A stretch of DNA of 47,178 nucleotides, taken from IMG/VR virus record IMGVR_UViG_3300041411_000142, positions 1 to 47,178 of that record; one strand, given 5' to 3'. Position numbers and translations under genes: made by a program. Below, piece by piece: positions 5,324 to 30,248 of the stretch (positions within the stretch are counted from its first letter, which is position 1; the number at the start of each line of letters is the position of its first letter). This DNA is from a virus. The notes beneath the pieces are model-generated. The model saw only the letters and a program-made list of their open reading frames with translations. It was not told the origin of the DNA and did no database searches.

Positions 5324-6382
5324 TTATTCAAACAATTCGTATTTCTTTGCCACGAAGGCCGAGACGAAAGGAAACAGGGTGCCGAAGATCAAGAGGAACC
5401 AAACCGCCCAGTCGGGCAATTCAACTTCAGCTTCCAGATATTCGAACTCTTTAATACTGCGTGGAGCATAACTGGTTTTAATGTTAGAAGCAATCGCTTT
5501 CGAGATTTCTTCTGAATTATATTTCCCAACGTCCAACAAGCTATCGCGAATCTTCACGTTAACAATATCTTCCTTAGACCAGGAAAAGACATCGACCGCC
5601 TTGAACGTTCCATCCTTATCAATATCAATCATGACCGTTACGTCGTTAATCTTTCCACCGAGGTTTTTATTCTTATAGGCTTCGACAAAGAAATGCCCGA
5701 GGCTATGGAATACGACGACTAGGTTAACTTTCTTTTCAGGTCCGAGGGTCTTCAGTTGTTCGTTCAGCAGATCATTTAATTGATTGTCGTGCTTATAAAG
5801 ACTTTGGAAATCGATTACCCGGTTGATTTTGTAGTAGTCGTACACGCCTGGATAATTCGGGATCGCGACCGTTGATTCAATTTCCGCCCGGTTAAAGACA
5901 GAGAATGGAGAAGCCTTAATGAAGTTGTAGTAACTACTTTCCTTCGCGAATGGTTGACCGACATATACAGCGGTCCAGCGCGAAGGCTCTTGCGTGCCTT
6001 GACGATTAACCCGATCAATATCGACGGAGCCGACCGTGCTTTGAACTACCCAATCAACATCATAAGAATGCTCGTAACAGGTACTACAAGTTTGTGAACA
6101 GGAACGACTACTACCGGAACCGCTACAAGTTTGACGACAATTACAAGAATAACTATGCCCACAAGAAACGTGTTCACTGTACTTTCGCGTTACTTGTCCA
6201 TTCAAGATTTGATTGTCGTACCCTTTCCCATAAAGGCTACCGAAGTAAACGGTGCCCATCAAAAGAGATTGAATGACCAACATCGCCAGACCTTCTTTCC
6301 AAGTAATATGGTGAGGCCAAATCCGTGTAGCGATAACCCAGATAATCGCGATAAAGATCGCAAAACCAATAATAAACCACAT
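5324..6382 (-). CDS. Membrane protein with Cys-rich loop
   Basis: 352 residues. Two N-terminal membrane helices (about residues 2-20 and 33-50) and one C-terminal helix (about 325-345, AVWFLLIFGTLFPFVSAF) flank a soluble domain. Directly after the second helix there are at least eight Cys in about 32 residues (CGHSYSCNCRQTCSG, CSQTC, CYEH), which may form disulphides or a metal cluster. The domain then runs DVDWVVQSTVG...IDRVNRQGTQEPSRW. It starts immediately after the PhaZ-like gene stops (TAAATG). I regard it as a conserved large-phage membrane protein; its role is unknown. Confidence 0.8.
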   Translation of the reverse strand: MWFIIGFAIFIAIIWVIATRIWPHHITWKEGLAMLVIQSLLMGTVYFGSLYGKGYDNQILNGQVTRKYSEHVSCGHSYSCNCRQTCSGSGSSRSCSQTCSTCYEHSYDVDWVVQSTVGSVDIDRVNRQGTQEPSRWTAVYVGQPFAKESSYYNFIKASPFSVFNRAEIESTVAIPNYPGVYDYYKINRVIDFQSLYKHDNQLNDLLNEQLKTLGPEKKVNLVVVFHSLGHFFVEAYKNKNLGGKINDVTVMIDIDKDGTFKAVDVFSWSKEDIVNVKIRDSLLDVGKYNSEEISKAIASNIKTSYAPRSIKEFEYLEAEVELPDWAVWFLLIFGTLFPFVSAFVAKKYELFE

Positions 6383-7192
6383 TTATGCTGCTTCCAGGAA
6401 TTTTTCAATAAGAGGAACGGACGCATCCAAGTCGGTCAAAAGAAACAAATGGCCGTCGTCGAATACATGGAGTTCTGAGTTAGGAATCCGTCCAGCGATA
6501 AAGTTCATATTCGCCAAAGGAATTAATGGATCATCGTTACCCGCTAGGACCAACGTCGGTTGTTTGATCCGATGGAGCCAAAAGATACTCGACCAATAAT
6601 AAACCGCTGAGACTTGATAATAATATCCAACGGTCGATGAAGAAGTTTTACTTTGCATCTTCTTCGCGTGCTCTACCGCCAGTTCAGGGTTAGTACGGAA
6701 CTGGCCGCCATAGATGTCTGGAGCGATCTTAGCGCTGTACTCGGAGTCGGTATAACGCTTAGGGTTAGACATCAGGGCCAGTACCTTAAGCGAAGGCGGA
6801 ACCGCCAAGAAGCCCGAAGAGGTCGCGGCCAGGATCAACTTACGACAGCGTTGCGGATAGTCGTGAGCGAATTGTTGAGCGAGAAATCCACCCCAAGAAA
6901 TACCAATAACATCAACTTTACCGTAGTTGAAATGGTCGAGAATCTTGGTGGTCAACTTCGCCAAACCCGAGAAACGGAAGGGGAAAGTTGGATCAGGAGA
7001 ACCACCAACGCCAGGAACGTCAAACGTAATGACTTCAATTTCGGGATCCAGCGCTTCGATAAATGTTTGGATCAAGTCTAAACTAGCACCGATACCATTA
7101 AAGAATAAAAGTGGAACTGGGTTAGGTGCCAGACCGCGCCTTACTGCTACACGAATTACTTGACCATCAATATCGATTGTTCCAATATTCAC
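6383..7192 (-). CDS. phaZ: PhaZ-like polyhydroxyalkanoate depolymerase (alpha/beta hydrolase)
   Basis: 269 residues, GTG start overlapping the preceding TAG by one base. Alpha/beta hydrolase fold with nucleophile motif GISWGG (Ser99), acid AGNDDPLIP (Asp221) and DDGHLFLLT (His248), in the same order and spacing as Pseudomonas PhaZ (Ser102, Asp221, His248). As I recall those sequences, the match runs nearly end to end: LLFFNGIGASLDL, FDVPGVGG, FSGLAKLT, AQQFAHDYP.RC, LAATSSG, IAPDIYGG, WLHRIKQPTLVLAG. Family role: cleaves ester bonds of intracellular medium-chain PHA granules to hydroxyacids. It lacks the short C-terminal extension of the host enzyme. Could be another esterase, but the similarity is unusually specific. 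Confidence 0.88.
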   Translation of the reverse strand: MNIGTIDIDGQVIRVAVRRGLAPNPVPLLFFNGIGASLDLIQTFIEALDPEIEVITFDVPGVGGSPDPTFPFRFSGLAKLTTKILDHFNYGKVDVIGISWGGFLAQQFAHDYPQRCRKLILAATSSGFLAVPPSLKVLALMSNPKRYTDSEYSAKIAPDIYGGQFRTNPELAVEHAKKMQSKTSSSTVGYYYQVSAVYYWSSIFWLHRIKQPTLVLAGNDDPLIPLANMNFIAGRIPNSELHVFDDGHLFLLTDLDASVPLIEKFLEAA

Positions 7193-7452
7193 TAGTTAAT
7201 TCCCTTTTTATTATGAAATTGCTTAAGTGCTTCAGTAACAATATCGGTTACATCTTTAGCTTGGCGGTCCAAGGCTTTAAACTTCCGGCCTTTAGAACCA
7301 ACAATCGTCAGAGAGACATCGTTTTTGATATTAAACACATCGACCAGATAAACACCACCGGGCGCGGTTTGGGCGTTACGCACCGCTTCTACGATAGCCT
7401 CTTTAATCTTTTGGCAGAAGATCTGGTTACGAAGTGAAGTCTTGGTTATCAT
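7192..7452 (-). CDS. Hypothetical protein upstream of phaZ-like gene
   Basis: 86 residues. Helical N-terminus (QIFCQKIKEAIVEAVRNA), a beta section (GGVYLVDVFNIKNDVSLTIVG), and a helical C-terminus (DIVTEALKQFHNKKG). The stop overlaps the start of the PhaZ-like gene by one base, so the pair is co-translated. It does not resemble the phasins or regulators of bacterial pha clusters. Function unknown. Confidence 0.75.
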   Translation of the reverse strand: MITKTSLRNQIFCQKIKEAIVEAVRNAQTAPGGVYLVDVFNIKNDVSLTIVGSKGRKFKALDRQAKDVTDIVTEALKQFHNKKGIN

Positions 7453-9341: not shown

Positions 9342-9956
9342 TTATTTTTGTACCCAGCGTTGGAGAGGAAGAAAGAGAGCCATTTCCCAGGATTGCGCCG
9401 GAATCTCTACCAGCGTCGATTTGAAATGGTCGATCCGGTAGGCGTGGATAGCCTTTTCGTAATACTTGCTCTGCGCCAGAACCTTAATGACACTCCAGCT
9501 GAAATCCAGCTTCGTGTTCTTCCGATAGCGCGCTTCAGTCTTGAACTTCAACAATCCGCGAAAGGCTGCCATCCGTAAGGCCGGGGCCAGGTAGTGGAAG
9601 TTCAAGCCGAGAACGATTTGAGCCCCGGCCTTCGATTTGTAGGTATCAAAGAAAATAACGATTGGATACCTGTCCCAAATTGGCAGAGTATCTTTATGAA
9701 GTGCATCATATTCGAAGAAATACATCTTGCCTAGGGAGAAGTTGTGTCCCTTCCAGGTCTTCCGGTCGCGGAACATCGAACCAGTACCAAGTTTGTTATA
9801 GGCTCGCGACACGTATTTTCTGAAAAAATCCATGGAAGCCGAGGTGTTGCGCTTCGCTGAACCGTTATTCGCTTTAGTCCAAGCCTTTTCAAGATTTTGG
9901 AGCACTTGTAAATCGGTGCCGGTGTTGTTTACATAATCTTCTTTTGCAACAGCCAT
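9342..9956 (-). CDS. Conserved phage protein, probably structural or DNA-end related
   Basis: 204 residues. The core MYFFEYDALHKD...LPIWDRYP and LGLNFHYLAPALRMAAF match a family that I have seen repeatedly in T4-like and jumbo phages, where it is sometimes called a DNA-end protector or structural protein; I am not sure of that name. It is the only gene read leftward from the 9,957-10,017 intergenic region, which holds late-type motifs in both directions. This suggests late expression despite its strand. Confidence 0.8.
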   Translation of the reverse strand: MAVAKEDYVNNTGTDLQVLQNLEKAWTKANNGSAKRNTSASMDFFRKYVSRAYNKLGTGSMFRDRKTWKGHNFSLGKMYFFEYDALHKDTLPIWDRYPIVIFFDTYKSKAGAQIVLGLNFHYLAPALRMAAFRGLLKFKTEARYRKNTKLDFSWSVIKVLAQSKYYEKAIHAYRIDHFKSTLVEIPAQSWEMALFLPLQRWVQK

Positions 9957-9969
9957 ATGTTTTCCCGCG

Positions 9970-9979
9970 AATAAATAAT
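9970..9979 (+). promoter_or_regulatory. Late-type promoter motif, rightward
   Basis: AATAAATAAT, 39 bases before the start of the tail-tube-like gene at 10018. It resembles the T4 late promoter TATAAATA, which is recognised by a phage sigma factor and needs no -35. Confidence 0.5.
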
Positions 9980-9996
9980 CTAGTGAAAGTATAACT

Positions 9997-10006
9997 CTTA
10001 TTTATT
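9997..10006 (-). promoter_or_regulatory. Late-type promoter motif, leftward
   Basis: Minus strand AATAAATAAG, 41 bases before the start at 9956. A possible sigma70-like alternative overlaps it (TTGCTT, 17 bases, TATACT), so the mode of control is uncertain. Confidence 0.4.
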
Positions 10007-10017
10007 GGGAAAGCAAA

Positions 10018-11070
10018 ATGTTTGATGAATATGTAGACAAAGCTAAAGGCGTCTTTGACGATGGTGTTGGCTGGGTCAAAGAAGGTATTGGAGTTCTCTC
10101 CGAAGGCGCGAATTCAACTCCAAGTAAGCCTGAGAGCCTACTGGCTGTACACACCAACATTTTGAAGAATGGCCTGTCGCGAACTAACCGGTTCCAAGTC
10201 ATCATCGAACTCCCACAAAAGATTGTTGATAACACCGAGAAGGAAGCCAAGAAGAACTCCAACTTGGCGAAGTGGTTTGGTGAAGCTGTTAAGATTGTTA
10301 AGATCTTCACGGGCAATAGCGCGTCGGATTATACACGCGGCCTTGATATCATGTGCGCCCAAACGTCGATCCCCGGCAAGATGATTAACATCAGCGAAGC
10401 GAAGTACAACGGCGACACGCTGAAGTCAGGACATTCAATTCTTTACGGACAACATCAGTTCACTTTTAAAGTCTCTACCGACATGTATGAGAAGACGATT
10501 ATCGATAACTGGATGAATATTATCGTTAACCCGAACACTCATGAAATTGGATATCACCGTGACTACGCGACTAACATCATTATCAACCAGTTAAATACAA
10601 ACGATAAAGTTGTTAAGTCATACATGCTGGAAGACGCGTGGCCGGTTAACATTAACGAATTAGTCCTGTCGAACCTCGAATTTAACAACACGCACGAACT
10701 GATGGTCCAATTTGCTTATCGTCGTTGGAAAGACGTTGATCTAGATACTGGAGGCAATGGTTTACTTGATAAACTTTCTCAGACGCCGTTCGGTCCTTAC
10801 CTTGCCCCTATCCTTTCTAACCCAGCCGTACAAAAGGGTTTGGAATACTTGGAAGAGACAACCGGCATAGATTTGGAAGGCGAAGCTGTTAATATATACA
10901 ACCAGGTAGACAAAATTGTTAAAGAGACCACCGGCGAATCCATCGGGAACGCGGTATCTCTTCTAAACGGTATCAAAGCTAATCTAGATCTAACCGAAAA
11001 TATCTCACCCGACCAGCTCGTGAAGCTTAGTGAGATTATTGACGGAACTATTGGAAAAATTAAGGAGTAA
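10018..11070 (+). CDS. Tail tube / tube-initiator fold protein (T4 gp19/gp54-like)
   Basis: 350 residues. The centre has the conserved order DIMCAQTSIPGK, then F.F.VSTDM, NWMN, Y..DY.TNIIINQL and YMLEDAWPVNINELVLS, ending FAYRRWKDVD, which is the pattern of T4-type tail-tube fold proteins. It is too long for the plain tube protein and carries an extra C-terminal helical domain (about residues 250-350), so it is more likely a tube-initiator or tube-associated protein. First gene of a rightward late unit with the tail chaperone and tape measure. Confidence 0.75.
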   Translation: MFDEYVDKAKGVFDDGVGWVKEGIGVLSEGANSTPSKPESLLAVHTNILKNGLSRTNRFQVIIELPQKIVDNTEKEAKKNSNLAKWFGEAVKIVKIFTGNSASDYTRGLDIMCAQTSIPGKMINISEAKYNGDTLKSGHSILYGQHQFTFKVSTDMYEKTIIDNWMNIIVNPNTHEIGYHRDYATNIIINQLNTNDKVVKSYMLEDAWPVNINELVLSNLEFNNTHELMVQFAYRRWKDVDLDTGGNGLLDKLSQTPFGPYLAPILSNPAVQKGLEYLEETTGIDLEGEAVNIYNQVDKIVKETTGESIGNAVSLLNGIKANLDLTENISPDQLVKLSEIIDGTIGKIKE

Positions 11071-11077
11071 CTAAAAT

Positions 11078-11803
11078 ATGGCGTTGCCAAAAATTCAACA
11101 CAAGCTACACGAACATTACCTGACGGGCTTGAAGAAGAAAATCAAGTTTCGGGCGTTCACCGTAGCCGAGCAAAAGATTCTTCTCCAGACCAAGGAAGAG
11201 ATTGGCGATAAAGAACCGACCACCGGTCACAATCCAGACACCATCCTAGCCGTATCTCAAATCATCGAGAATTGCACCCTAGGCAAGATCAACCCGGACG
11301 AACTCTGTACCTTCGACCTAGAGGATTTGTTTCTACGTTTACGGTCTAAGTCGGTCGGTGAAAAGTTTAACGTCCGGTACGCCGAACACTACGTTGACGA
11401 AGAAGGTCGCCCCCAAACTAACTTCATCAATATCCACATCAACCTGGACGAAGTTAAAGTTATTGAAAACCCGGACCACAAGAACACCATTAATGTAACG
11501 GACGATATTGGCGTGATTATGCGCTATCCGACGTTTAAGATGTTGAGCGAGTGTAAGACCAGCGACGACTTAGCCAAGGCTTGTATTGAGACAATCTTTA
11601 CCCCTACTGAAATGCACGAAACCAATATTGCCCCTAAAGGCGAAATTGATGAGTTTTATGACAGTATTGAAACGATCCCGATGCAAGAAATTAAAAAGTT
11701 CTTCGACACGATGCCTAAGTTAAGACATACCGTTGAAGTTACTCTTCGTGATGGTCGCAAGGAAACGATTGTGTTTGAGGGACTGGAAAGTTTTTTCACC
11801 TAA
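11078..11803 (+). CDS. gp26-like baseplate/tail assembly chaperone (short form)
   Basis: 241 residues. Residues about 22-60 (FRAFTVAEQKILLQTKEE) and 85-115 (CTFDLEDLFLRLRSKSVGE) are the signature of the T4 baseplate protein family around gp26 (PF12322), where FDLE.LFL.LR..SVGE is diagnostic. In T4 such proteins help assemble the hub and are not in the final tail. The stop TAA is preceded by T TTT TTC, a canonical -1 slip site, and the following frame is open for 63 codons. The gene precedes the tape measure, the usual place for tail-assembly chaperones made by frameshifting. Confidence 0.85.
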   Translation: MALPKIQHKLHEHYLTGLKKKIKFRAFTVAEQKILLQTKEEIGDKEPTTGHNPDTILAVSQIIENCTLGKINPDELCTFDLEDLFLRLRSKSVGEKFNVRYAEHYVDEEGRPQTNFINIHINLDEVKVIENPDHKNTINVTDDIGVIMRYPTFKMLSECKTSDDLAKACIETIFTPTEMHETNIAPKGEIDEFYDSIETIPMQEIKKFFDTMPKLRHTVEVTLRDGRKETIVFEGLESFFT

Positions 11804-11878
11804 TCCTCGGTCATGAAAGTTTGGCTTCCTACTACACCAACAACTTTAGTATGTTTTATCATAAAGACGTTGGTGTAG
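11791..11878 (+). promoter_or_regulatory. -1 ribosomal frameshift signal
   Basis: The slippery heptamer T TTT TTC (11791-11797) is in the correct phase, two codons before the zero-frame stop. A perfect 10-pair hairpin, CTACACCAAC (11832-11841) with GTTGGTGTAG (11869-11878), follows about 34 bases downstream and could stimulate slipping. No start codon with a ribosome site precedes the downstream frame. Confidence 0.75.
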
Positions 11879-11982
11879 TGAACCATTTTAGACTTGAGGA
11901 TTTTGATAACATGTACCCTTGGGAACGCGAGATTTACATGACGATGATGAACGAAAAGATTAAAGAACTTAGTAAACAATAA
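11791..11982 (+). CDS. Frameshift extension of the tail assembly chaperone
   Basis: Read in the -1 frame from the slip site, 63 codons continue to TAA 11980-11982, giving a fused protein of about 301 residues (11078-11982). The extension contains GHESLASYYTNNFSMFYH and MYPWEREIYMTMMNEKIKE, with the (Y/M)PWERE(I/V)Y motif typical of T4-like tail proteins near this locus. It lacks its own credible start, so it is almost certainly made only as a fusion, like lambda gpGT. It ends 14 bases before the tape-measure start. Confidence 0.75.
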   Translation, partial: FFHLILGHESLASYYTNNFSMFYHKDVGVVNHFRLEDFDNMYPWEREIYMTMMNEKIKELSKQ

Positions 11983-11996
11983 GAAGACAAAATAAA

Positions 11997-14012
11997 ATGG
12001 CACTCAAAGATACGATTCTAGATGTTAAAAATATGCATCGTTCTATCCAACTAAGAGGGATGGACGATCCAGCACAAGTAACTGCTCTACTTGAGAAGAT
12101 CCTCAAGGAAGCGGTAGTGGCTCAGGCGTCTGGCTCTAGAACGTTTGAGCGCAAGGCGATTGCTGAACTAAATCAAATTCGTCAGGATCTGGTAGCCGGA
12201 CAAATTAATGCCGGTGGATCGAAAGATGCGATGGTAGGGATTTATTCTCACCTCCTAGATCAAATGAACGGTATGCAGAAGGACAATAAGAAATCAGCGA
12301 GTGTTTCGAATAAAGCGTTTAAACAACTCTCCAACTCGATTCCTTCGGCAGACACTTTTATTTCGGCATTGATGACGGCCAACCCGTTGGTTGGGTACGG
12401 TGTTAAGATCGCCCGCGACATTATGCGTTCTACTAAAGTTGGAGCCGACGATCAGAAAGCCGAACAAGCCAAGAAACTAAAGAACCTTAAGGCCCAAGAG
12501 AAGTACATCAAGGATCAGCTAAAGGTTCTGGCGGTCGAAGAAAGTGCAGCCAAGAAAGAATTGGACGCAGCGACGATCAAAGATAAAGTCTCAAAAAAGC
12601 CTGCGGAAAAGCGCGACGTTTACCTGAAAATACTAACTGATATCCACATTGAGATTCAGAAGTTAGTTAATGAATGGATGGGGACTAGTAATCAAACCTC
12701 GATAAGCCCTGACTCACTTAACATCGATCCAAGTAACATCCCGATCATCATTGGATTAGATCAAGTTGAAGAGGAAATCGCCGCACAGTCTCGTTTAGAA
12801 GAGAAACTTTCGCACGAGGAAATTAAGGCTATTGAAGACCAAGATAAGAAAGATGACCGCGACTCTACACTTGAGCGTCTGAAGGACGACAGCGAAGGTA
12901 GCGGCAAACTTGACCTGTCTCCAGTTAACGATGCTATGGCTAAAGAAAAAGGCGGATTCGGTAAACTTCTTGAAGGTTTGATCGCCCCAATTATGTTAGT
13001 CATGAGGACCGGTCTAATGGCCCTAGGCGGCGCGATGCTGGCCGCCTTTACCACGGTTGTAGCTATTCCGGCGCTCATCGCTACAGCGGTCTACAAGCTC
13101 TTAGACGGCTTCTTTAACGCAGAAAGAATTATCGGGAAGGAAAGTAAAGACATTACGATGTTTGATCGACTTAAGGCAGGGGTTGCTAATATTTGGGGAA
13201 CAATCTTTAAAATTGTCGATTGGGTAACGAATCTGTTTGGGTTTGACTTTTTTGATTCGAAAGACATCGAAAAGAAAATCTACAGAGCGTTTGATGATCT
13301 ACAAAATTATATCGTTAAGAGCTTCGAAAAGGTTACTGCATACGGGAAGGAGAAGTTTAATTCTGCGTTGGAGTCGGCTACGAAGATTTATGACGACATC
13401 TTTGGGATGATTGATAACACCTCGAAGTTCATCACCGGCAAATACGATCAACTAAAGACGTTCTTCGATAGTTTAGCAACTAAAGGAATCATCGAAACGT
13501 TCCGGGAAATGATGACAACGGTTGAAGACCCTAATCAAAGTCCGCACCGTCAACAAGATTCGGAATGGATGGGACCGGACGGCGATATCCCAATTCTTCA
13601 AACTCCGCCACAGTGGACCGGGCCAGACGGCGATATTCCTGTACTTCCTAAAGCAGCCCCAAAGAAATTGGAGAAAGTACCAACGGAACAAACTCAGCCC
13701 CCTGTGGATGGGATTATTCCGAAGAAAAGTGCAATTACAACTCAACCACCGAAGAATCCAAATCCAGAAGTTATTCGTATGAGTAACCCTGATAATCGGA
13801 AAAAGATTGAAGGTGAACCGTCTAGCGGGAAACAAATTAGTGGGAGTATGCGAACTGCAGAAGTTAACGCGAATAAAGGAACAGGTTCGTCAGCTCCAGT
13901 TGTAGTTGCTCCAAGTACCACGAACAACTCGGTTAACAACCACCAGTACAGCGGTCCACCGACTACCGCGAATCTAGATCCTGATTTTAGGTCGATGATG
14001 AAAGTTGGATAA
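11997..14012 (+). CDS. Tape-measure-like tail protein
   Basis: 671 residues. The N-terminal 290 are helical and coiled-coil (KAEQAKKLKNLKAQEKYIKDQL). A hydrophobic section at about 320-375 (APIMLVMRTGLMALGGAML, ALIATAVYKLL) is like the membrane-active part of tape measures. The C-terminal 150 are Pro/Asn/Thr-rich and unstructured, with a tandem unit W-x-GPDGDIP-x-L near residues 522-550. Position directly after the frameshifted chaperone supports a tape-measure role, equivalent to T4 gp29, though sequence alone does not prove it. Confidence 0.7.
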   Translation: MALKDTILDVKNMHRSIQLRGMDDPAQVTALLEKILKEAVVAQASGSRTFERKAIAELNQIRQDLVAGQINAGGSKDAMVGIYSHLLDQMNGMQKDNKKSASVSNKAFKQLSNSIPSADTFISALMTANPLVGYGVKIARDIMRSTKVGADDQKAEQAKKLKNLKAQEKYIKDQLKVLAVEESAAKKELDAATIKDKVSKKPAEKRDVYLKILTDIHIEIQKLVNEWMGTSNQTSISPDSLNIDPSNIPIIIGLDQVEEEIAAQSRLEEKLSHEEIKAIEDQDKKDDRDSTLERLKDDSEGSGKLDLSPVNDAMAKEKGGFGKLLEGLIAPIMLVMRTGLMALGGAMLAAFTTVVAIPALIATAVYKLLDGFFNAERIIGKESKDITMFDRLKAGVANIWGTIFKIVDWVTNLFGFDFFDSKDIEKKIYRAFDDLQNYIVKSFEKVTAYGKEKFNSALESATKIYDDIFGMIDNTSKFITGKYDQLKTFFDSLATKGIIETFREMMTTVEDPNQSPHRQQDSEWMGPDGDIPILQTPPQWTGPDGDIPVLPKAAPKKLEKVPTEQTQPPVDGIIPKKSAITTQPPKNPNPEVIRMSNPDNRKKIEGEPSSGKQISGSMRTAEVNANKGTGSSAPVVVAPSTTNNSVNNHQYSGPPTTANLDPDFRSMMKVG

Positions 14013-14020
14013 ATGATGAA

Positions 14021-14042
14021 GGAGCCTTTCGGCTCCTTTTTC
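14021..14042 (+). terminator. Intrinsic terminator of the tail operon
   Basis: GGAGCC, loop TTTC, GGCTCC, then TTTTTCAT. A compact 6-pair GC-rich stem followed by a T-tract, nine bases after the tape-measure stop. The convergent leftward gene ends at 14055, so this also separates the two units. Confidence 0.9.
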
Positions 14043-14054
14043 ATATCTACAATT

Positions 14055-14594
14055 TTAAGTCCAGAGGAAGTTTCGAATATTAACGATTCGAATCATAATC
14101 TGATCCACTTCCTTTTCAAAAACCTCGCGTCCAGTCAAGTCATACTTCTTCGTTTCTTCATCGTAGAACGGATCGTCCCCGGTATACGAGATAACAGGTT
14201 GCCACTTCTTACACCAAAGATAAAGATCGCGCATTTCGATCAGTTTACCAATATGCGAATCATGATTCGTAAGCGAACAGTGGTATTCATCTTGAGCCAA
14301 CATATCCATTTCTTTATGGATCGCGTCAACTACATCATGTTGACTCTTCGTTGCTGGGTACGCCTCGCGCTCTACGAAGTCGATCAGCACTTGTGCCAGA
14401 GCCGACTCAACCCGTACGCTAACATCAGCGTAAGTAGGGCTCATACCAGTGCGTAGGATGTTATAGCGATGCTTTGGGATAAACCGATAAGCAACCCAGA
14501 GATAACTTCGGTAGATGAAGCTTCGGCGAAACCACTTGTAGATACTGTATCGAACTTCGAACCATTCGATGTTTTTGAGTTTACTCAACAACAT
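14055..14594 (-). CDS. Conserved phage protein of unknown function
   Basis: 179 residues. The order HRYNILRTGMSPTYADVSVRVESALAQVLIDFVERE, in a helical context, then YLWCKKWQP and YDEETKKYDLTGREVFEKE, matches a family of hypothetical proteins common in large T4-like phages. The basic N-terminus (WFRRSFIYRSYLWVAYRF) is amphipathic rather than a clear membrane helix. The ATG overlaps the preceding TAA by one base (TAATG). Confidence 0.8.
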   Translation of the reverse strand: MLLSKLKNIEWFEVRYSIYKWFRRSFIYRSYLWVAYRFIPKHRYNILRTGMSPTYADVSVRVESALAQVLIDFVEREAYPATKSQHDVVDAIHKEMDMLAQDEYHCSLTNHDSHIGKLIEMRDLYLWCKKWQPVISYTGDDPFYDEETKKYDLTGREVFEKEVDQIMIRIVNIRNFLWT

Positions 14595-14818
14595 TAATTA
14601 CGACTCCTTGTCTCTACCGTATACGAACGCCCGCCAGTCCACGAAGTGTAGTCTTTATGAACCTGGTCGATTATCTCAACTACTTCCGCACCTTCACCCA
14701 ACTCACAAGCCTTGTTCCATGCATCTTTCAGGAATGGGACGTAGATTGGTTCGTGTTTAGTGTGGTCGTAATCAGGTTGATAGATGATCCAACTACGTTT
14801 GATCTGAGCCTTCTTCAT
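14594..14818 (-). CDS. Hypothetical small protein
   Basis: 74 residues, MKKAQIKRSWIIYQPDYDH. Contains a helical segment (LKDAWNKACELGEGAEVVEIID) and a basic C-terminus. Its stop overlaps the next start (TAATG). Not recognised. Confidence 0.75.
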   Translation of the reverse strand: MKKAQIKRSWIIYQPDYDHTKHEPIYVPFLKDAWNKACELGEGAEVVEIIDQVHKDYTSWTGGRSYTVETRSRN

Positions 14819-14823
14819 AGCCT

Positions 14824-15390
14824 TTATTCCTGGGTGGATTTGTAGAAGCGACCGGCCTTGCTAACAAGATAAGCATAAGCATTTTCGGACGGGGAACTAC
14901 AATCGCCTTTATCGAACCGTTTGAAGAACTTATCTTGACCCAGTTCAATCAATTTCTCGATTCGGCGGATAACCTGGACGATCAGCTTATCATTTTTGAG
15001 GTACATTGGATATGCCGAAGGCGAGAAAAGAATGTAGGCAATTTCATCGTTATCATCCCGCTCCAATTCCTTAGTTGCCCCAAGTTCGAAGAAATCGCAG
15101 ACGCCGTCAAAACTTTCAACGCCTTTATAGTTGATATCAAATCCGTACTTATCCTGAACGACTTTCAGGCCCATCTTGCGGAAGCGGCTATCCAGACCGG
15201 CGTGGCCCATCGCACAAGCGCTGAACCCACAATCCGCTTTAGAACTCTTGTTGTACCAGGTCCCAAGGTCAAATTGTTCCTTTTCGGTAATTTCTGCATA
15301 TTCTGGGAAAGAAACTTTAACAGGTTTCCAAGTACCAGCCACGACTTCGTTCAGCATAGTAACCATGAGTTGCAGACGTTTGGTATTCAT
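14824..15390 (-). CDS. Conserved phage protein with CGFSACAMGHA motif
   Basis: 188 residues. TWYNKSSKADCGFSACAMGHA around residues 44-65 resembles a phage/prophage family with a C-x4-C-x-(L/M)G core. The gene before it has a related C-A-x-G-C motif, so the two may share a fold. Helical C-terminus (LIVQVIRRIEKLIELGQDKFF). Function unknown. Confidence 0.75.
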   Translation of the reverse strand: MNTKRLQLMVTMLNEVVAGTWKPVKVSFPEYAEITEKEQFDLGTWYNKSSKADCGFSACAMGHAGLDSRFRKMGLKVVQDKYGFDINYKGVESFDGVCDFFELGATKELERDDNDEIAYILFSPSAYPMYLKNDKLIVQVIRRIEKLIELGQDKFFKRFDKGDCSSPSENAYAYLVSKAGRFYKSTQE

Positions 15391-15391
15391 A

Positions 15392-15781
15392 TTATACAGT
15401 TTCCGAAGGAGTTACAAAGTTAAAGGAAAGGTTATGTTCACCAGCTAACGCTTTTAACGCTTTAAGCCAAACTTCAGGATTATCGCCGTCATGAATCAAT
15501 TGAAGATCCGCAATAAGATCGTGGTGGACTTTAGTTTTAACGAGCCCGCTAGCAATCAAACCGCTCCAGGAAGTATCGCCTGCTCCATCCATTTCCGAAT
15601 TATATTCGTCATCGCCGATCAAACAACCAGCGGCGCACATTAGCTGATTACCGCCACGATACGCACAAAAACCGGCACCACTGGCTACAGAAACTTGGTT
15701 CTGTGTCAAGAGGTGATTAACGACTTGATCGAAAACTTGTTGTTTGGTTGCTTCAGCGAGATTCGAAAGTTTAATGAGCAT
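15392..15781 (-). CDS. Conserved phage protein with CAAGCLIGDDEY motif
   Basis: 129 residues. VFDQVVNHLLTQNQVSV, then CAYRGGNQLMCAAGCLIGDDEY, matches a widespread family in phages of gamma-proteobacteria (YRG..GL.CA.G.LI.DDEY) with no assigned function. The C-terminal part is helical and includes LIADLQLIHDG. A GGA-type ribosome site precedes the ATG, 6 bases after the small upstream frame. Confidence 0.8.
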   Translation of the reverse strand: MLIKLSNLAEATKQQVFDQVVNHLLTQNQVSVASGAGFCAYRGGNQLMCAAGCLIGDDEYNSEMDGAGDTSWSGLIASGLVKTKVHHDLIADLQLIHDGDNPEVWLKALKALAGEHNLSFNFVTPSETV

Positions 15782-15787
15782 AACGTT

Positions 15788-15871
15788 TCATCCAATAAGT
15801 AATGCTAGCACGACTAAGATGACGTGCATAGCGCAATAAAAGTTAAGCGTAAGCCTAACTACAAGTTTCAT
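15788..15871 (-). CDS. Possible 27-residue membrane peptide
   Basis: A 27-codon frame, MKLVVRLTLNFYCAMHVILV and on to VLALLIG. The ATG overlaps the TGA of the upstream gene (ATGA), and the stop lies 6 bases before the next ATG, so it fills the gap exactly. The C-terminal part is one hydrophobic helix. There is no independent ribosome site, so it would depend on coupling. It could instead be untranslated spacer. Confidence 0.45.
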   Translation of the reverse strand: MKLVVRLTLNFYCAMHVILVVLALLIG

Positions 15872-16116
15872 GCCCGCGCTTGGAGGCGCGTAAATTCCAG
15901 AACTTCGGGTACACCAGAAATCAACAGGCCAAGTTTAATTTTCGCACCGTTGATATCTTTGCGCATCGCAATTTCGAGAGGTTCATCAATCATACGGTTC
16001 AAAAAGATTGCATCGACGAAACCGCTCAGGCGGTCCAGGCGCATTTGCGCCTCTTCTTTAATAGAGATTTTGTTGATCTGAATAAGCTGATCGACGACAT
16101 AGGCTACGTTATTCAT
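15868..16116 (-). CDS. Hypothetical small protein
   Basis: 82 residues, MNNVAYVVDQLIQINKISIKEE. Helical, with several Leu/Ile heptads; no motif recognised. It is the first gene after the promoter at 16161-16188. Confidence 0.75.
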   Translation of the reverse strand: MNNVAYVVDQLIQINKISIKEEAQMRLDRLSGFVDAIFLNRMIDEPLEIAMRKDINGAKIKLGLLISGVPEVLEFTRLQARA

Positions 16117-16160
16117 GATTTACATCCTTTTCATTAAGAGGATTTCAGTTCGTAGGTCGA

Positions 16161-16188
16161 ATCATACGCGAATTTCTTAGGAAGTAAA
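16161..16188 (-). promoter_or_regulatory. Leftward promoter embedded in gene end
   Basis: Minus strand TTTACT (16188-16183), 16-base spacer, TATGAT (16166-16161). The -35 lies in the last codons (GFTS) of the Nudix gene. Confidence 0.65.
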
Positions 16189-16635
16189 CCCCGGATGTGC
16201 ATAATTTATCATTAAAGGAGAAATCTTTCCAGAACGCACGTCTTCGTTGAGCGCCATCGCGATCAGCATATCCACGTTCGGGCATTTATTGCATTCACTC
16301 AGTCTACGAATGGACACGCTGTTAACAATTTCGTCGGTCACGGAACGGAAAGCGTTAATATCTTTAAGCGTCGTCCAGAAGCAATCAACAATAAAGTCGC
16401 TGGAGTACATCGAAGCGAAAATCTTCCAGTCTTCTGGCTGGGTGTTGATACCAGCTTCTTCGCGGAACTCGCGAGCCTGGGCATGGAATTCGTTTTCGTC
16501 GTAGCCTTCGACCTTGCCGCCGATCCCGTTCAACTTCCCGGCTTGCCACTCGGGGCGATTCTTTTGAATCAAGAGGACGGAAGTGAAGCTTTCATCAAAT
16601 GCAAATCCAAGGGTGTATTCAACAATTTTAGACAT
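16177..16635 (-). CDS. Nudix hydrolase
   Basis: 152 residues from MSKIVEYTLGF; ATG 16635 follows the upstream TAA by one base. The Nudix box is clear: GGKVEGYDENEF, then HAQAREFREEAGI, ending in the REUxEExGU core that binds Mg2+. The spacing between the Gly and the first Glu is one residue longer than the canonical GX5EX7. Nudix enzymes hydrolyse nucleoside diphosphates linked to another group; T4 NudE acts on ADP-ribose and Ap3A. Substrate here cannot be told. Confidence 0.88.
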   Translation of the reverse strand: MSKIVEYTLGFAFDESFTSVLLIQKNRPEWQAGKLNGIGGKVEGYDENEFHAQAREFREEAGINTQPEDWKIFASMYSSDFIVDCFWTTLKDINAFRSVTDEIVNSVSIRRLSECNKCPNVDMLIAMALNEDVRSGKISPLMINYAHPGFTS

Positions 16636-16636
16636 T

Positions 16637-16825
16637 TTAAATCTCAACATGATCGATTAGAGTTTTTACTTCTTGTTGAAGCGGAGAAGCTTCTACTCCG
16701 ACGCCCCAAGCCGTTGGGTCAAAATCGTATTTTTCAAGATACCATTCGTATTGGAAGTGATAAAGAATAGACTTTACTTCGATGTAGTAGTTGTTGCCGG
16801 CCTTATAGACCGGACACAAACTCAT
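16637..16825 (-). CDS. Hypothetical small protein
   Basis: 62 residues, MSLCPVYKAGNNYYIEVKS, rich in Tyr and Trp. The ATG overlaps the preceding stop (ATGA). Not recognised. Co-transcribed with the Nudix gene. Confidence 0.7.
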   Translation of the reverse strand: MSLCPVYKAGNNYYIEVKSILYHFQYEWYLEKYDFDPTAWGVGVEASPLQQEVKTLIDHVEI

Positions 16826-17034
16826 TCGGGAGTACCGTCTTTAAAGAGGCTTTCAAGCAACGACTCTTGATAGTTGGCTTGATGATCCAGTTGAATCGCC
16901 AAGGTCGGATCGTTTCCGTAGATCCGAGCACTTTGAGCCAGCGAGCGGTTACAGGCTACACCACTCAGAAGGGAATTGTAGAGCTGGTGAGCGCTACACT
17001 TGAATTTCACTTCACCTTTCTTCTTAAGTTCCAT
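16822..17034 (-). CDS. Hypothetical small protein
   Basis: 70 residues from MELKKKGEVKFKCSAHQLY. The open frame continues upstream to 17205, but the ATG at 17034 has AAGGAAGAAATAAA and the region above belongs to another gene. Helical, two Cys. Not recognised. Confidence 0.7.
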   Translation of the reverse strand: MELKKKGEVKFKCSAHQLYNSLLSGVACNRSLAQSARIYGNDPTLAIQLDHQANYQESLLESLFKDGTPE

Positions 17035-17035
17035 T

Positions 17036-17248
17036 TTATTTCTTCCTTTCCTCGATGAAGAGCAAGTGTACCTTACATTTCTCTTCTCGGGCAACTCTTT
17101 TTTCGCATTTCGCCTTGCCCTCTTCGAAGGCTTGGTAGGTCGTTCCATAATCCTTCTCGATATCCTTCCAAGCCCCTCTCTCACCGAGCCAGCCGCCGAG
17201 AGCAAATATCAGCATTACCACGAATATTACGCCAATTTCATTTTTCAT
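17036..17248 (-). CDS. Small membrane protein
   Basis: 70 residues. One N-terminal membrane helix (residues 5-21, IGVIFVVMLIFALGGWLG) is followed by a charged helical region with three Lys/Glu-flanked Cys-containing turns (KAKCEKRVAREEKCKV). The topology resembles inner-membrane spanins, but it is short and no partner outer-membrane lipoprotein is seen nearby. Function not assigned. Confidence 0.75.
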   Translation of the reverse strand: MKNEIGVIFVVMLIFALGGWLGERGAWKDIEKDYGTTYQAFEEGKAKCEKRVAREEKCKVHLLFIEERKK

Positions 17249-17472
17249 GATTTAGACTCGATTTTAGATTTAAGGTCTTCCACCGTATCCAGCACAGCGC
17301 AGTTATAGTGGATATTCAATGCCACCCAGGCCCGCTTATAGTCGATAGCCACAATCTTCAAGGGTACAATATCATCCTTTTGATCGATGCGACCGAACCA
17401 ATAAATGGCCTGATTGCTACCGGGGATTGGAAGAACGTGTGAACAAACGTAAATTTTATCGAGAGGTTTCAT
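17245..17472 (-). CDS. Hypothetical small protein
   Basis: 75 residues from MKPLDKIYVCSHVLPIPG. The ATG at 17472 follows the upstream TGA by one base and has GGGGA. Beta-rich (IYWFGRIDQKDDIVPLKIVAIDY), likely a small barrel. Overlaps the next gene by 4 bases. Confidence 0.75.
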   Translation of the reverse strand: MKPLDKIYVCSHVLPIPGSNQAIYWFGRIDQKDDIVPLKIVAIDYKRAWVALNIHYNCAVLDTVEDLKSKIESKS

Positions 17473-17473
17473 A

Positions 17474-17680
17474 TCAAATTTCCCCAAGTTCGGTCTTGAA
17501 TTCTTCCCAAAGTTCTTCGATGTCGTTACCGAGCATATACTGATCGGAAGGGTCACAGGAAGCCATTTCGCAAGGATCGCCGTCTTCATCGGACCAAGCT
17601 TTTAGACCCGCGTTCAGCTCGTTTTCCTTACGCTTGATATCATAAAGGATATCGATTAGACGGTCAATATTACGACTCAT
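17474..17680 (-). CDS. Hypothetical small acidic protein
   Basis: 68 residues, acidic and helical (LIDILYDIKRKENELNAGL; DIEELWEEFKTELGEI), with two Cys (CEMASCD). GGAATTATC precedes the ATG. Not recognised. Confidence 0.75.
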   Translation of the reverse strand: MSRNIDRLIDILYDIKRKENELNAGLKAWSDEDGDPCEMASCDPSDQYMLGNDIEELWEEFKTELGEI

Positions 17681-17689
17681 GATAATTCC

Positions 17690-17932
17690 TTATGCGTCGC
17701 TGCGGATTGAGCGAATGGCCTGATCAGTTCGAGATATTCCTTTCTCAATTTGTTCTTCAATATGTTTGACCAAACGTTCTTGGGCAGATACATCCGGCTG
17801 CGAGTTCCAGAGGTCCGTCATAAGGTGAAGGATAGGACATTCAGGACCATTCGCATCAGCTTTACGCATATAAACGGCGTTCACCATCAACCAGCGAAAG
17901 CAAGCGGCATCTTTTTCATTAATTAGAGACAT
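17690..17932 (-). CDS. Hypothetical small protein
   Basis: 80 residues from MSLINEKDAACFRWL. The open frame continues to 17983 into the promoter/hairpin, so I use the ATG at 17932. Helical; the C-terminal half (ERLVKHIEEQIEKGISRTDQ) is amphipathic. First gene after the promoter at 17973-18001. Confidence 0.7.
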   Translation of the reverse strand: MSLINEKDAACFRWLMVNAVYMRKADANGPECPILHLMTDLWNSQPDVSAQERLVKHIEEQIEKGISRTDQAIRSIRSDA

Positions 17933-17966
17933 GATATACGTTCCATTTAAGGGTTCAGAAACAACT

Positions 17967-18001
17967 GGGCCTAGGATAATCACCTAGGCCCGAGAAGTAA
18001 A
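17967..18001 (-). promoter_or_regulatory. Leftward promoter with inverted repeat over the -10
   Basis: Minus strand TTTACT (18001-17996), 17-base spacer, TATCCT (17978-17973). A perfect 9-base inverted repeat (GGGCCTAGG at 17967-17975, CCTAGGCCC at 17983-17991) spans the -10 and part of the spacer. In readthrough RNA from thyX this forms a strong hairpin, but without a long T-tract. Confidence 0.75.
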
Positions 18002-18010
18002 GCTTTATTT

Positions 18011-18985
18011 TTAACGTTGAGTCGAAGCGTAATCGTGACCTGGAATCAGCTGGCGGTGCTGGATCCAACCGGTAAAGTTACCCGAACCAAATTTCCAATC
18101 GCGAGTAAGGTGCGTTACACCTTCTTCCCAAGCAAACGCGGTTTGTTTTTTGTAAGAATCTTCTTCGAGTTCACGAGTCCATTCAGGATGCTTCATCGGC
18201 GTGGCTTGGTGTTCGAAAGGCGAACCGTGAACCTTATTATCGCTAATCAGACGTTCCTTAACCTTCAGTGCTTTCTCTAGAGTATCGTCCGCGCTACGGA
18301 ACGAAACCTGGGCACAACAAGAAGAGGAAATCGCCAGCGCTTCACGAAGCGTATGACCGCCGCGCTTACTATCAGTTTCTTCTAGGCCAAATTCGGTTTG
18401 TTTAACGTAACCACAACCTCTCCAGTACCCCTTACCGTAATACGGCGTGTGCCAATCGCCCGGTTGAAGCAGAACGGGAACGCTACCTTTACGCGCTTCG
18501 ATCATCGCTCGACAAAGAGCAGCAATCGTCGGGTCCGCCATATCGTCATCGCGCAACCAATCCCAGTTACCGAAGTCGGTCGATGTCAAAACCGTTTTCA
18601 TGTGGCTACCGGCTTCGGTTAGACGGTTACAAACTTGTTTCGCATAACCCGCTTCGTGGAAACCGTCCGAGAACTTAATGGCCGAACTGATCGCCAAGTC
18701 CCACCATTCGTGTGGAGTATACCCGTTAATCAGCGCGTTATGTTCGCCGTTATCTTGCATACCCACATTAGCTGCACCAAAACGAACCGGGCGAGCAACA
18801 TCAGCGCGGATCATTTCATTCATCTTCGGTACGGGAATAGCGCGGGAACTGGCTGAGTTACGCGAGAAGACGCGGTGCGTGTTAACTTCGGCCAGGATGA
18901 TACGAGGATAGACATCTTCGTAAGTAATAATTTCAACGCCTTCAGACGTAATGGAGTGAGCAACAACTTTAGCAGTAACAGTCAT
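18011..18985 (-). CDS. thyX: Flavin-dependent thymidylate synthase
   Basis: 324 residues, longer than classical ThyX (about 220-250). NTHRVFSRNSASSRAIPV (about residues 35-52) is the ThyX signature, with Thr in place of the first Arg of RHRxxS as in the long phage/bacterial subfamily. HxxxG-type residues later (WIQHRQLIP) and ALAISSSCCAQVSFR complete the nucleotide and flavin site. It methylates dUMP to dTMP using methylene-tetrahydrofolate and FADH2. Grouped with glutaredoxin, nrdB and nrdA for dNTP supply. Confidence 0.93.
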   Translation of the reverse strand: MTVTAKVVAHSITSEGVEIITYEDVYPRIILAEVNTHRVFSRNSASSRAIPVPKMNEMIRADVARPVRFGAANVGMQDNGEHNALINGYTPHEWWDLAISSAIKFSDGFHEAGYAKQVCNRLTEAGSHMKTVLTSTDFGNWDWLRDDDMADPTIAALCRAMIEARKGSVPVLLQPGDWHTPYYGKGYWRGCGYVKQTEFGLEETDSKRGGHTLREALAISSSCCAQVSFRSADDTLEKALKVKERLISDNKVHGSPFEHQATPMKHPEWTRELEEDSYKKQTAFAWEEGVTHLTRDWKFGSGNFTGWIQHRQLIPGHDYASTQR

Positions 18986-19020
18986 TTTTAAACCTTATTC
19001 AACATTAATTAAGTAACACA

Positions 19021-19039
19021 GGGGAGCATTATACTCCCC
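19021..19039 (-). promoter_or_regulatory. Hairpin around a TATAAT -10
   Basis: Perfect inverted repeat GGGGAG-N7-CTCCCC with consensus TATAAT (19033-19028) in the loop on the minus strand. A -35 is weak (TTAGAC, 18-base spacer). Lies 36 bases upstream of thyX and 19 bases after the glutaredoxin gene. A near-identical element lies at 35767-35785. Confidence 0.5.
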
Positions 19040-19057
19040 ATTAGTTGTAAAGTCTAA

Positions 19058-19333
19058 TTACAGTACATCTAGATCAATACGATCATCGTTGTAACTTGCT
19101 GCATATGCCTGGAACTCTTTAAACCCGCCAAGGTAGGTATTAAGACCATCTTCCGAGATAAAGACTTGCGGAACGCTCGACACGCGACCACCAGCGATCA
19201 TTTCCAGCGCTTCGGCGGTAATGTCCTTATGGATCGTTTTATAGGTGTACGGGATACCCTTACTTTCGCAAATTTGGGTAGCGTGCGTACAGCGACCACA
19301 ACCGACATTACCAACAATAACTACAATACTCAT
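19058..19333 (-). CDS. nrdC: Glutaredoxin (NrdC-like)
   Basis: 91 residues from MSIVVIVGNVGCGRC; an in-frame ATG six bases upstream (19339) is possible but less well spaced from GAGAG. The active site is CGRC. The cis-proline motif SSVPQVFI and the GG at YLGGF complete the thioredoxin/glutaredoxin fold. It reduces the C-terminal disulphide of ribonucleotide reductase. Lies 15 bases after nrdB, in the same unit as nrdA and nrdB. Confidence 0.9.
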   Translation of the reverse strand: MSIVVIVGNVGCGRCTHATQICESKGIPYTYKTIHKDITAEALEMIAGGRVSSVPQVFISEDGLNTYLGGFKEFQAYAASYNDDRIDLDVL

Positions 19334-19348
19334 ATTCATTTCTCTCTA

Positions 19349-20428
19349 TTAAAAGTCTACTTCGAATCCGGCCATATCCATGTCGATGTTACCGGTTTGA
19401 TAGCTGGTTAATTCTTCTTCTTGTGGAGGTGGTTGATCTTCATCGCCGCCTTCGTTCAAGAACTTCCGCATCCAGTTGATTGGTTCTTTCTTCGGATAAG
19501 GGAACTTAACTTCCAGGCCCATCCGCAACATGGACTTCGCCACGAGGTAATCAACATACAGGTTCAATTCTTGTTCGGTAATCCCGAGAATCGGACCTTT
19601 GAGGAACAGGTACTTAATCCATTCCTTCTCTTGCTTATAAACGGCTTCGTAAATCTCTTGTGCTGTGGCCTTACAACGACGTTCAATCTCAACGAAGTCT
19701 GGGTCATCTTTCGGCAACAACTTCAGAACGTTTTGAGTAAAGCCGCAGTGAAGCGATTCATCCTGACGGATCAGCGTCATGATGTTACACGTACCATTCA
19801 TCTTATCCCGAGCACCAAACGAGAATGTCCCGGCAAAACTAACGTGGAAACGGATCTGCTCTAGGGCGTTGGTAGCGACCATCGAGTTGTAGAACGCGAC
19901 CTTAGTATCAATGTGTCCGTAAGGCAGCTCTCGCTGGCACCGTAGAAGCTCGTCGTAATACTTACTGACGTCGTTACCCACTTCGAGGATTTCGTGAATC
20001 TTCGACATACCGTCATAAACTTTCGACGGATCAGGATAAACGTTTTCAATGATGTGGGTGTAGCTCTTAGAGTGAATCCCCTCGAAGAACGTCCACGCGT
20101 TAATAAAGCTTTCGATCCAAGGATCAGATGCGACAGGCAAGTAACAAAGACTTGGAGCGCGACCTTGGACGCTATCGAGAACGATTTGGCGCTGGATGTT
20201 AGAGGTAAAGAAGTGATTTTCTGCTACAGTAAAGTCAGCATAATCAAGTTTGTCTTGTGAAAGGTTAATCTCGCCCGGACGCCAGAAGTTTGCTTCAGCG
20301 TTATCGGTGAGTTTCTTAAAGATTGGGTACTTCACAATATCATAACGCTGAATATCAACTGTACCGCTTGGATCAAAGAACATCTGGGGTTTAGCTAGTC
20401 CAGCTTCCCGAATTTCAAATACACTCAA
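19349..20428 (-). CDS. nrdB: Ribonucleotide reductase class Ia beta subunit
   Basis: 359 residues; TTG start with a strong AGGAGAGAAAG site. The diiron ligands and radical Tyr follow the E. coli spacing: Asp85, then EGIHSKSY with Glu116, His119 and Tyr123. Later ligands lie in EQIRFHVSFAG and DESLHCGF. NrdB makes the tyrosyl radical used by NrdA to convert NDPs to dNDPs. It overlaps a 110-residue gene by 14 bases, and that gene separates it from nrdA. Confidence 0.96.
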   Translation of the reverse strand: MSVFEIREAGLAKPQMFFDPSGTVDIQRYDIVKYPIFKKLTDNAEANFWRPGEINLSQDKLDYADFTVAENHFFTSNIQRQIVLDSVQGRAPSLCYLPVASDPWIESFINAWTFFEGIHSKSYTHIIENVYPDPSKVYDGMSKIHEILEVGNDVSKYYDELLRCQRELPYGHIDTKVAFYNSMVATNALEQIRFHVSFAGTFSFGARDKMNGTCNIMTLIRQDESLHCGFTQNVLKLLPKDDPDFVEIERRCKATAQEIYEAVYKQEKEWIKYLFLKGPILGITEQELNLYVDYLVAKSMLRMGLEVKFPYPKKEPINWMRKFLNEGGDEDQPPPQEEELTSYQTGNIDMDMAGFEVDF

Positions 20429-20747
20429 CTTTCTCTCCTAAAATTTTAGTAGCTTGACGATCTAAGTCTTCAATAGCCATATACATTATGTTATCTCTTA
20501 GATTTAGATAACATAAATGCTTGAAATATTCTTCATCCTGGCCCCAAGCGAACATCACTTCTGCGTTGGTAAGCAGTCGCGATTGATATATCTTCCCATC
20601 AACATTTACTTTAATGAACGAGATACGGTCATTAGGCGACTTACATTCTGGATAAGGAACAATAGCATTTATATTCTTAGACGCTTTGAGGAACCGACGG
20701 TTATCCAAGTATCCTTTATGAAGTAAAGCTAATGATATAATTTTCAT
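20415..20747 (-). CDS. Hypothetical protein between nrdA and nrdB
   Basis: 110 residues, MKIISLALLHKGYLDNRRF. No domain recognised; Tyr- and Asn-rich with a helical C-terminus (IEDLDRQATKILGEKVE). It overlaps nrdB by 14 bases and follows the terminator/promoter block after nrdA, so it could be expressed with nrdB from its own promoter. Confidence 0.75.
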   Translation of the reverse strand: MKIISLALLHKGYLDNRRFLKASKNINAIVPYPECKSPNDRISFIKVNVDGKIYQSRLLTNAEVMFAWGQDEEYFKHLCYLNLRDNIMYMAIEDLDRQATKILGEKVECI

Positions 20748-20756
20748 TTATTTCAC

Positions 20757-20789
20757 CGAAAGAAAAGGGCCAGGTTATTAGGCTGGCCC
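20757..20789 (-). terminator. Intrinsic terminator after nrdA
   Basis: On the minus strand GGGCCAG, 9-base loop, CTGGCCC, followed by TTTTCTTTC. A 7-pair GC-rich stem with T-rich tail, 18 bases after the nrdA stop. Confidence 0.8.
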
Positions 20790-20790
20790 T

Positions 20791-20819
20791 AGTATAACTT
20801 AGTTACTTAGATTGCACAA
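20791..20819 (-). promoter_or_regulatory. Promoter in nrdA end, overlapping the terminator
   Basis: Minus strand TTGTGC (20819-20814), 17-base spacer, TATACT (20796-20791). Transcripts starting about 7 bases downstream would lack the 5' arm of the terminator hairpin (20783-20789), so new initiation could escape the terminator that stops readthrough from nrdA. Confidence 0.45.
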
Positions 20820-23080: not shown

Positions 23081-23093
23081 TGTTTCCTCTTAA

Positions 23094-23672
23094 TTACTTC
23101 ATGTGTTTCGAATCAGGGTGACCAATCATGTATTTAATCATGGCATAAGCATCCACGATATCCGCGACTGGTGAATCTTTAGGTTTTGGGGCTGTAATTC
23201 CGACAAACAAATCAACTACCGCAATGGACTCATTCGCCACTAAAGTCTCGTACATCACTTCTTTATTGGCGTTGCCTTTCGTAGTGAAGTGTTTCTTTAC
23301 CGCAGACGGGGCAGGACATTGAACTTCTATTCCAGCCATCCACATCTTATGTTTCAACAGACCGCCGTTCTCGGCAATGTTAAAGACTAAGCCTTTCGAG
23401 GCTCCCATTGCGTAGCCTTCCATTGTAACACTTTTGACGCTAAACTTATGAAGAATCTCCATGGCCCATTCTGAAAGGTTATTGTACCTCTCTTCGGCGC
23501 ATAAGTAATCTTTTTGTTTGAACCCATGAATATAATCAAACGACTTGTCAAACTTCTTATTATCGTGATAGAAGAAGTATTGGCAATTTTTGAATTCTAG
23601 TTTGTCTTTAGTATTGTAGATGGCAATACAGGGGCACGACATGCTCCAATCGATACCAGCAATGTAAGCCAT
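23094..23672 (-). CDS. RuvC-like Holliday junction resolvase
   Basis: 192 residues. RNase H-fold with acidic residues in the RuvC order: Asp8 in GIDWSMSCP, Glu85 in MEGYAMG, and Asp171/Asp174 in VADIVDAYAM. The KKHFTTKGNANKEVM segment is the basic substrate-binding section seen in RuvC (K.a.tG.G.A.K..v). It likely cuts branched phage DNA during recombination and packaging, replacing T4 endonuclease VII. The ATG follows the TAA of a small zinc-ribbon gene by one base. Confidence 0.85.
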   Translation of the reverse strand: MAYIAGIDWSMSCPCIAIYNTKDKLEFKNCQYFFYHDNKKFDKSFDYIHGFKQKDYLCAEERYNNLSEWAMEILHKFSVKSVTMEGYAMGASKGLVFNIAENGGLLKHKMWMAGIEVQCPAPSAVKKHFTTKGNANKEVMYETLVANESIAVVDLFVGITAPKPKDSPVADIVDAYAMIKYMIGHPDSKHMK

Positions 23673-23673
23673 A

Positions 23674-23826: not shown

Positions 23827-23838
23827 AGTGTTTCCTTA

Positions 23839-26662: not shown

Positions 26663-26689
26663 ACATTACCTTTATTGAAGTTCATTTTC

Positions 26690-28134: not shown

Positions 28135-28144
28135 TGGTTTCAAC

Positions 28145-28156: not shown

Positions 28157-28169
28157 TACGATTAATTAA

Positions 28170-30247: not shown

Positions 30248-30248
30248 A

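Follow-up and report, generated by a model that had tools for sequence, protein, structure and literature searches.

The phaZ locus and its carrier phage

The DNA analyzed here (the window) is an entire virus record, 47,178 bp in length; the gene under study, phaZ, lies 6.4 kb from its left end (Table 1). The earlier note had placed an open reading frame (ORF) at this position, and this was borne out on the minus strand: the phaZ ORF comprises 269 codons with a GTG start, and the plus strand contains many stop codons there. The TAG stop codon of an 86-amino-acid ORF and the GTG of phaZ have one base in common (TAGTG), which suggests that the two genes are probably translationally coupled; a Shine-Dalgarno-like sequence lies 8 nt 5′ of the GTG. 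The 86-amino-acid ORF had no match in Pfam, NCBIfam, or PHROG. On the other side, the TAA of phaZ is followed without a gap by the ATG (position 6382) of a 352-amino-acid gene, whose cysteine-rich, membrane-spanning phrog_2087 product has relatives in 474 phage records. A promoter scan around phaZ performed overall no better than on shuffled sequence, with a single 11/12 site at 7896-7868. The GC content of phaZ (46.7%) is close to that of the contig (45.0%), and the gene therefore appears to be adapted to the phage.

Table 1 Features of the phaZ locus and of the window that carries it
Feature	Position	Strand	Basis
phaZ, intracellular mcl-PHA depolymerase of the PhaZ family (TIGR02240), 269 aa, GTG start (predicted)	6383..7192	-	TIGR02240 score and AlphaFold2 model
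Shine-Dalgarno-like AAGGGA	7201..7206	-	Sequence
86-aa ORF, stop overlapping the phaZ start	7192..7452	-	ORF list and sequence
phrog_2087 gene, 352 aa, Cys-rich, membrane segments	5324..6382	-	phrog_2087, E = 5.5e-106
Ser99 codon, catalytic nucleophile in GISWGG	6896..6898	-	Aligns to Ser102 of P. putida PhaZ; S in 46/46 phage ORFs
Asp221 codon, catalytic acid	6530..6532	-	D in 46/46 phage and 80/80 Pseudomonas proteins
His248 codon, catalytic base (DDGHLF)	6449..6451	-	H in 46/46 phage and 80/80 Pseudomonas proteins
FNGIG loop, residues 31-35, oxyanion/lid-contact loop	7088..7102	-	Conserved in alignment; PMC12504323
Lid region, residues ~145-205, phage-clade motif AVY(Y/W)W and 4-residue hinge insertion	6578..6760	-	AlphaFold2 helices 145-198; hinge alignment
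Conserved T4-like backbone	9342..46784	.	tblastn against pf16, mostly 42-67% aa identity, same order

By gene content and order, the contig is assigned to a T4-like myovirus that is co-linear with the Pseudomonas putida phage pf16 (Chakrabartyvirus). The backbone includes genes for a DNA end protector, tail tube, NrdB, NrdA, RuvC, a Clp-like protease, a DNA transfer protein, primase, topoisomerase II subunits, and baseplate. The phaZ site belongs to a variable small-gene region beside this backbone, in which two genes have counterparts towards the left end of pf16; although syntenic with the window, that phage has no phaZ. Phage genes thus flank phaZ on both sides, as judged from the synteny with pf16 here and from that between a second carrier, L002, and phage Noxifer (below). 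The claim of the earlier note that phaZ is resident among phage genes is supported by the co-linearity with pf16 and by the presence of homologues on about 50 further viral contigs. From pf16, the host of the window phage is probably a Pseudomonas. A candidate second PHA gene in the window, the ORF at 25052-26662, was considered as phaC and rejected; it encodes a phage DNA-transfer protein (67% to pf16 gp189) and matched loci adjoining other phaZ genes. Two metabolic loci of pf16, to which the window showed no homologue, encode an acyl carrier protein (L205:26143-26634) and a nicotinamide phosphoribosyltransferase/PRPP synthetase pair (L207:8344-10831).

Family membership, active site, and lid of the window protein

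The window protein scored 374.8 bits (E = 2.5e-112) against TIGR02240, the NCBIfam equivalog model for poly(3-hydroxyalkanoate) depolymerase, and exceeded its curated cut-off of 250.6 bits by 124 bits. The runner-up families (PcaD and fusions, RutD, proline iminopeptidases, and short-chain PHA depolymerase) reached 58 to 102 bits against their own cut-offs of about 170 to 430 bits. The model is specific: in samples of genomes around Pseudomonas aeruginosa, its cut-off was passed by 2 of 369 at the level of the class, 15 of 398 at that of the phylum, and 24 of 392 at that of the order, although the sampled genomes are rich in alpha/beta hydrolases, and by none of 14 control genomes. All 12 other viral records tested also scored above the cut-off. 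The nearest cellular proteins are chromosomal Pseudomonas PhaZ, with ∼62% identity. The earlier note had proposed a PhaZ-type depolymerase with a Ser99-Asp221-His248 triad, and both the family and the intact triad held up; it had also allowed for other esterases or haloperoxidases as the best matches with PhaZ far below, and the opposite was seen, with TIGR02240 the top family by about 270 bits. The profile score establishes the family, and positions 6383-7192 are thus predicted to encode a PhaZ-type depolymerase of medium-chain-length polyhydroxyalkanoate (mcl-PHA).

Ser99, Asp221, and His248 of the window protein align to Ser102, Asp221, and His248 of P. putida KT2440 PhaZ (numbering of PMC12504323), and the serine lies in a G-x-S-x-G context (GISWGG). 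The FNGIG stretch corresponds to F31-N32-G33-I34-G35, where Asn32 matches the essential Asn35 and is an asparagine in all 46 aligned phage ORFs. In P. putida PhaZ, deletion or mutation of the NGIG loop (including Asn35) abolishes activity (PMC12504323). The triad and the NGI residues are invariant among the 46 phage ORFs, none of which has lost a triad residue, so that the catalytic machinery appears intact throughout. An AlphaFold2 model of the window protein (mean pLDDT, 89.7) has an alpha/beta-hydrolase core with a helical lid. Its PDB matches are alpha/beta hydrolases, with Bacillus thuringiensis PhaZ in the top ten, and none of its viral matches in BFVD exceeds 23% identity. The N-terminus (MNIGTIDIDGQVIRVAV) forms a beta strand in the model and has no hydrophobic leader; a signal peptide was judged absent by eye only.

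The window protein shares with chromosomal Pseudomonas PhaZ (phaC1-phaZ-phaC2, P. putida KT2440) the TIGR02240 assignment, a similar length, the triad, the NGIG loop, and a predicted lidded fold. The phage proteins differ by derived residues common to their clade, namely, F103 after SWGG (SWGGF instead of SWGGA), N219 before DDP (NDDP instead of DDDP), and aromatic residues at lid positions 198 and 199, where Pseudomonas has LG. The lid stretch YYWQLFAGLGW of Pseudomonas PhaZ has become YYYQVSAVYYW in phage, with AVY(W/Y)W in place of AGLGW and the substitutions W192Y, G197V, L198W/Y, and G199W/Y. The hinge of the window protein reads YYYQVS instead of YYWQLF and is preceded by a 4-residue insertion; hinge insertions of 4 to 8 residues are present in the window, L002, and L003. 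The PhaZ lid is highly sensitive to change, and a single hinge substitution in P. putida PhaZ, S184F, nearly abolished depolymerase activity and raised esterase activity (PMC12504323). Since the phage clade carries insertions and substitutions in this sensitive element, the substrate range of the phage enzyme may have shifted, and this is our chief reservation.

Taken further, the same lid changes, with insertions of up to ∼8 residues, and the precedent of S184F turning P. putida PhaZ towards an esterase would fit a phage enzyme that no longer acts on PHA but has esterase, lipase, or thioesterase activity towards a different host ester, for example in membrane or signaling metabolism or as a help in lysis. 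We regard this as improbable: the PhaZ cut-off is clearly exceeded and other esterase families remain far under theirs, the lid is still aromatic, the known essential residues are unchanged, and those carrier phages that have a known relative all point to Pseudomonas, the mcl-PHA genus.

Phylogeny and distribution among phages

Protein-guided scans revealed PhaZ ORFs on about 50 IMG/VR contigs, which fall into ∼18 groups without common DNA around the gene, a number in which fragments may be over-split. Among 50,697 GenBank phage records, none had a relative above 34% identity. The carriers include phiKZ-like jumbo, T4-like, sipho-, podo-, and lambdoid phages, so the gene is spread across unrelated phages: L002 (284 kb) and L121 (280 kb) encode phiKZ-type RNA polymerases, and L002 also a phiKZ-type DNA polymerase; L003 (229 kb) encodes GroEL and jumbo-phage virion proteins; L004 to L008 encode lambdoid NinB, NinG, RusA, and replication protein O; and further contigs encode a tape measure protein and portal (L123), an internal-virion endolysin (L131), or rIIA (L097). 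Hosts are indicated by pf16, which grows on P. putida, by Noxifer, which grows on P. fluorescens, and by short stretches of L117 and L006 that match Pseudomonas phages. In L003, a tandem run of 8 or 9 virion-like paralogues of ∼310 to 350 amino acids each (10886-19638) adjoins phaZ, and in L090, a reverse transcriptase gene (phrog_1423; 8759-9919) is located directly upstream of it.

Searches of 15 phage records for phasin (PF05597) and PhaC (PF07167) were empty, which suggests that the phage supplies the degrading step only; the gene thus resides in phage operons without phaC or phasin, unlike its chromosomal counterpart.

In two maximum-likelihood trees, 30 representative phage proteins and one copy from a Pseudomonas megaplasmid formed a single clade (support of 100/98 in the first tree and 99/97 in the second), which was the sister, on a separate branch, of chromosomal Pseudomonas PhaZ. 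The window protein grouped with those of L002, L003, and L109/L122 (100/95-96 in the two trees), so that its closest relatives are PhaZ proteins of other phages and not host PhaZ. The PhaZ of L121 fell outside the main phage clade and grouped with Paraburkholderia and Caballeronia PhaZ. Because L121 is of the Burkholderia type and a single clade for all phage copies was rejected (AU test, P = 0.0002), at least two independent acquisitions of phaZ by phages are supported. The L121 gene (L121:9527-10795; IMGVR_UViG_2974641675_000001) has a 422-amino-acid frame with a long N-terminal extension.

The sole bacterial sequence inside the phage clade is the PhaZ of the 1.17-Mb Pseudomonas silesiensis megaplasmid pPL1, which comes from a plastics landfill (L208:23028-23921; NZ_CP143488.1). 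It has SWGGF and NDDP like the phage proteins but is plasmid-borne, and none of its neighboring genes matches any phage locus. Since this copy falls among the phage copies, the clade is best described as one of mobile elements, mostly phages. A second or phage-type PhaZ copy was not found in 25 genomes of the P. aeruginosa genus group, nor in 398 Pseudomonadaceae genomes, the latter a weak search with a very strict E-value and no positive control.

Nei-Gojobori dN/dS ratios for close phage pairs within groups ranged from 0.04 to 0.16, which demonstrates purifying selection on phage phaZ; for the window itself, only distant partners were available, with dS near saturation.

These data bear on whether phaZ might be a recent host-gene passenger or the product of a contig chimera, with no role for the phage. 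Phages do acquire host genes, and both pf16 and Noxifer manage without phaZ. The evidence against, however, makes such an origin very improbable: identity to any host PhaZ found is only ∼62%, the GC content fits the phage, purifying selection is strong, and the gene recurs in many independent metagenome assemblies. L002 provides a further case. Its DNA polymerase is 83% identical to that of Pseudomonas phage Noxifer (Noxifervirus), gene order is kept on both sides of phaZ, and phaZ occupies the exact place of Noxifer gp081, between the homologues of gp082 and gp080; Noxifer differs from this syntenic relative in having no phaZ. As the gene is inserted exactly within conserved synteny, an assembly chimera is strongly argued against for the L002 group.

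Proposed role in infection and significance

We put the probability at about 0.78 that phaZ is a mobile auxiliary metabolic gene of phages whose product is a functional intracellular mcl-PHA depolymerase that is used on host granules. We infer the substrate, the time of expression, and the benefit to the phage as follows, with the cleavage of PHA to 3-hydroxyacids taken from PhaZ biochemistry. The phage PhaZ would be made during infection of a PHA-storing Pseudomonas and would bind to the PHA granules of the host, where its lid-gated Ser-Asp-His site would cut the granule polyester independently of the regulation that the host imposes on its own PhaZ. The resulting 3-hydroxyacids would be activated by the host and enter beta-oxidation, supplying phage synthesis with acetyl-CoA and reducing power, and granules would disappear from the cytoplasm. 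Because the host already has phaZ, the gain for the phage must, on this account, be one of dosage or altered regulation. The presence of related copies in about fifty virus sequences of unrelated kinds suggests that phages routinely cash in the carbon reserve of the host during infection.

The benefit might also be physical. PHA granules can fill much of a cell, and their degradation would remove both the granules and DNA-binding phasins, so that cytoplasm and nucleoid would become free for the assembly of virions and for replication compartments. The occurrence of phaZ in L002 and L121, jumbo phages with large structures inside the cell, is in line with this, but the gene is also found in small lambdoid and siphovirus-like phages, which need little space, and no result obtained here separates such clearance from carbon supply. 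We consider a mainly physical gain possible though doubtful; it is a subcase of degradation of host PHA by the phage enzyme, the two probabilities overlap, and carbon supply and clearance are compatible.

Phages of PHA-producing mixed cultures have been described to carry the auxiliary genes phaC, phbB, fadJ, and acs, among others (PMC12013262). Like phaZ, these act on the PHA pool, but towards synthesis, whereas phaZ here is predicted to degrade; neither phaZ nor "depolymerase" occurs in the main text of that paper. The earlier note knew of no described phage PhaZ, and our search of the open-access literature likewise found no report of a phage-encoded PHA depolymerase: open-access papers that join PHA and phage auxiliary metabolic genes held synthesis genes, passing mentions, or references only. 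What the earlier note presented as a single gene has been extended to a widespread phage clade. As far as we have checked, the enzyme family is known, and the phage lineage common to unrelated viruses is new.

We lean towards the view that Pseudomonas phages share a phage-adapted PhaZ lineage that moves between unrelated virus families and is lid-tuned for granule breakdown outside host control. If true, attack on storage polyester would be a general phage strategy, evolved independently in the jumbo phage with a Burkholderia-type phaZ. The breakdown of mcl-PHA inside the cell has been described as specific to Pseudomonas (PMC12504323), and a widely shared phage version would mean that viruses can take over this bacterial carbon reserve. 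This would bear on how much energy infection costs starved cells with rich stores in soil, rhizosphere, and sludge, a question directly testable with P. putida. In practice, PHA production cultures could be ruined by phages with phaZ, or polymer release could be aided by them, and the natural variety of phage lids may offer ready-made variants for enzymes in bioplastic recycling.
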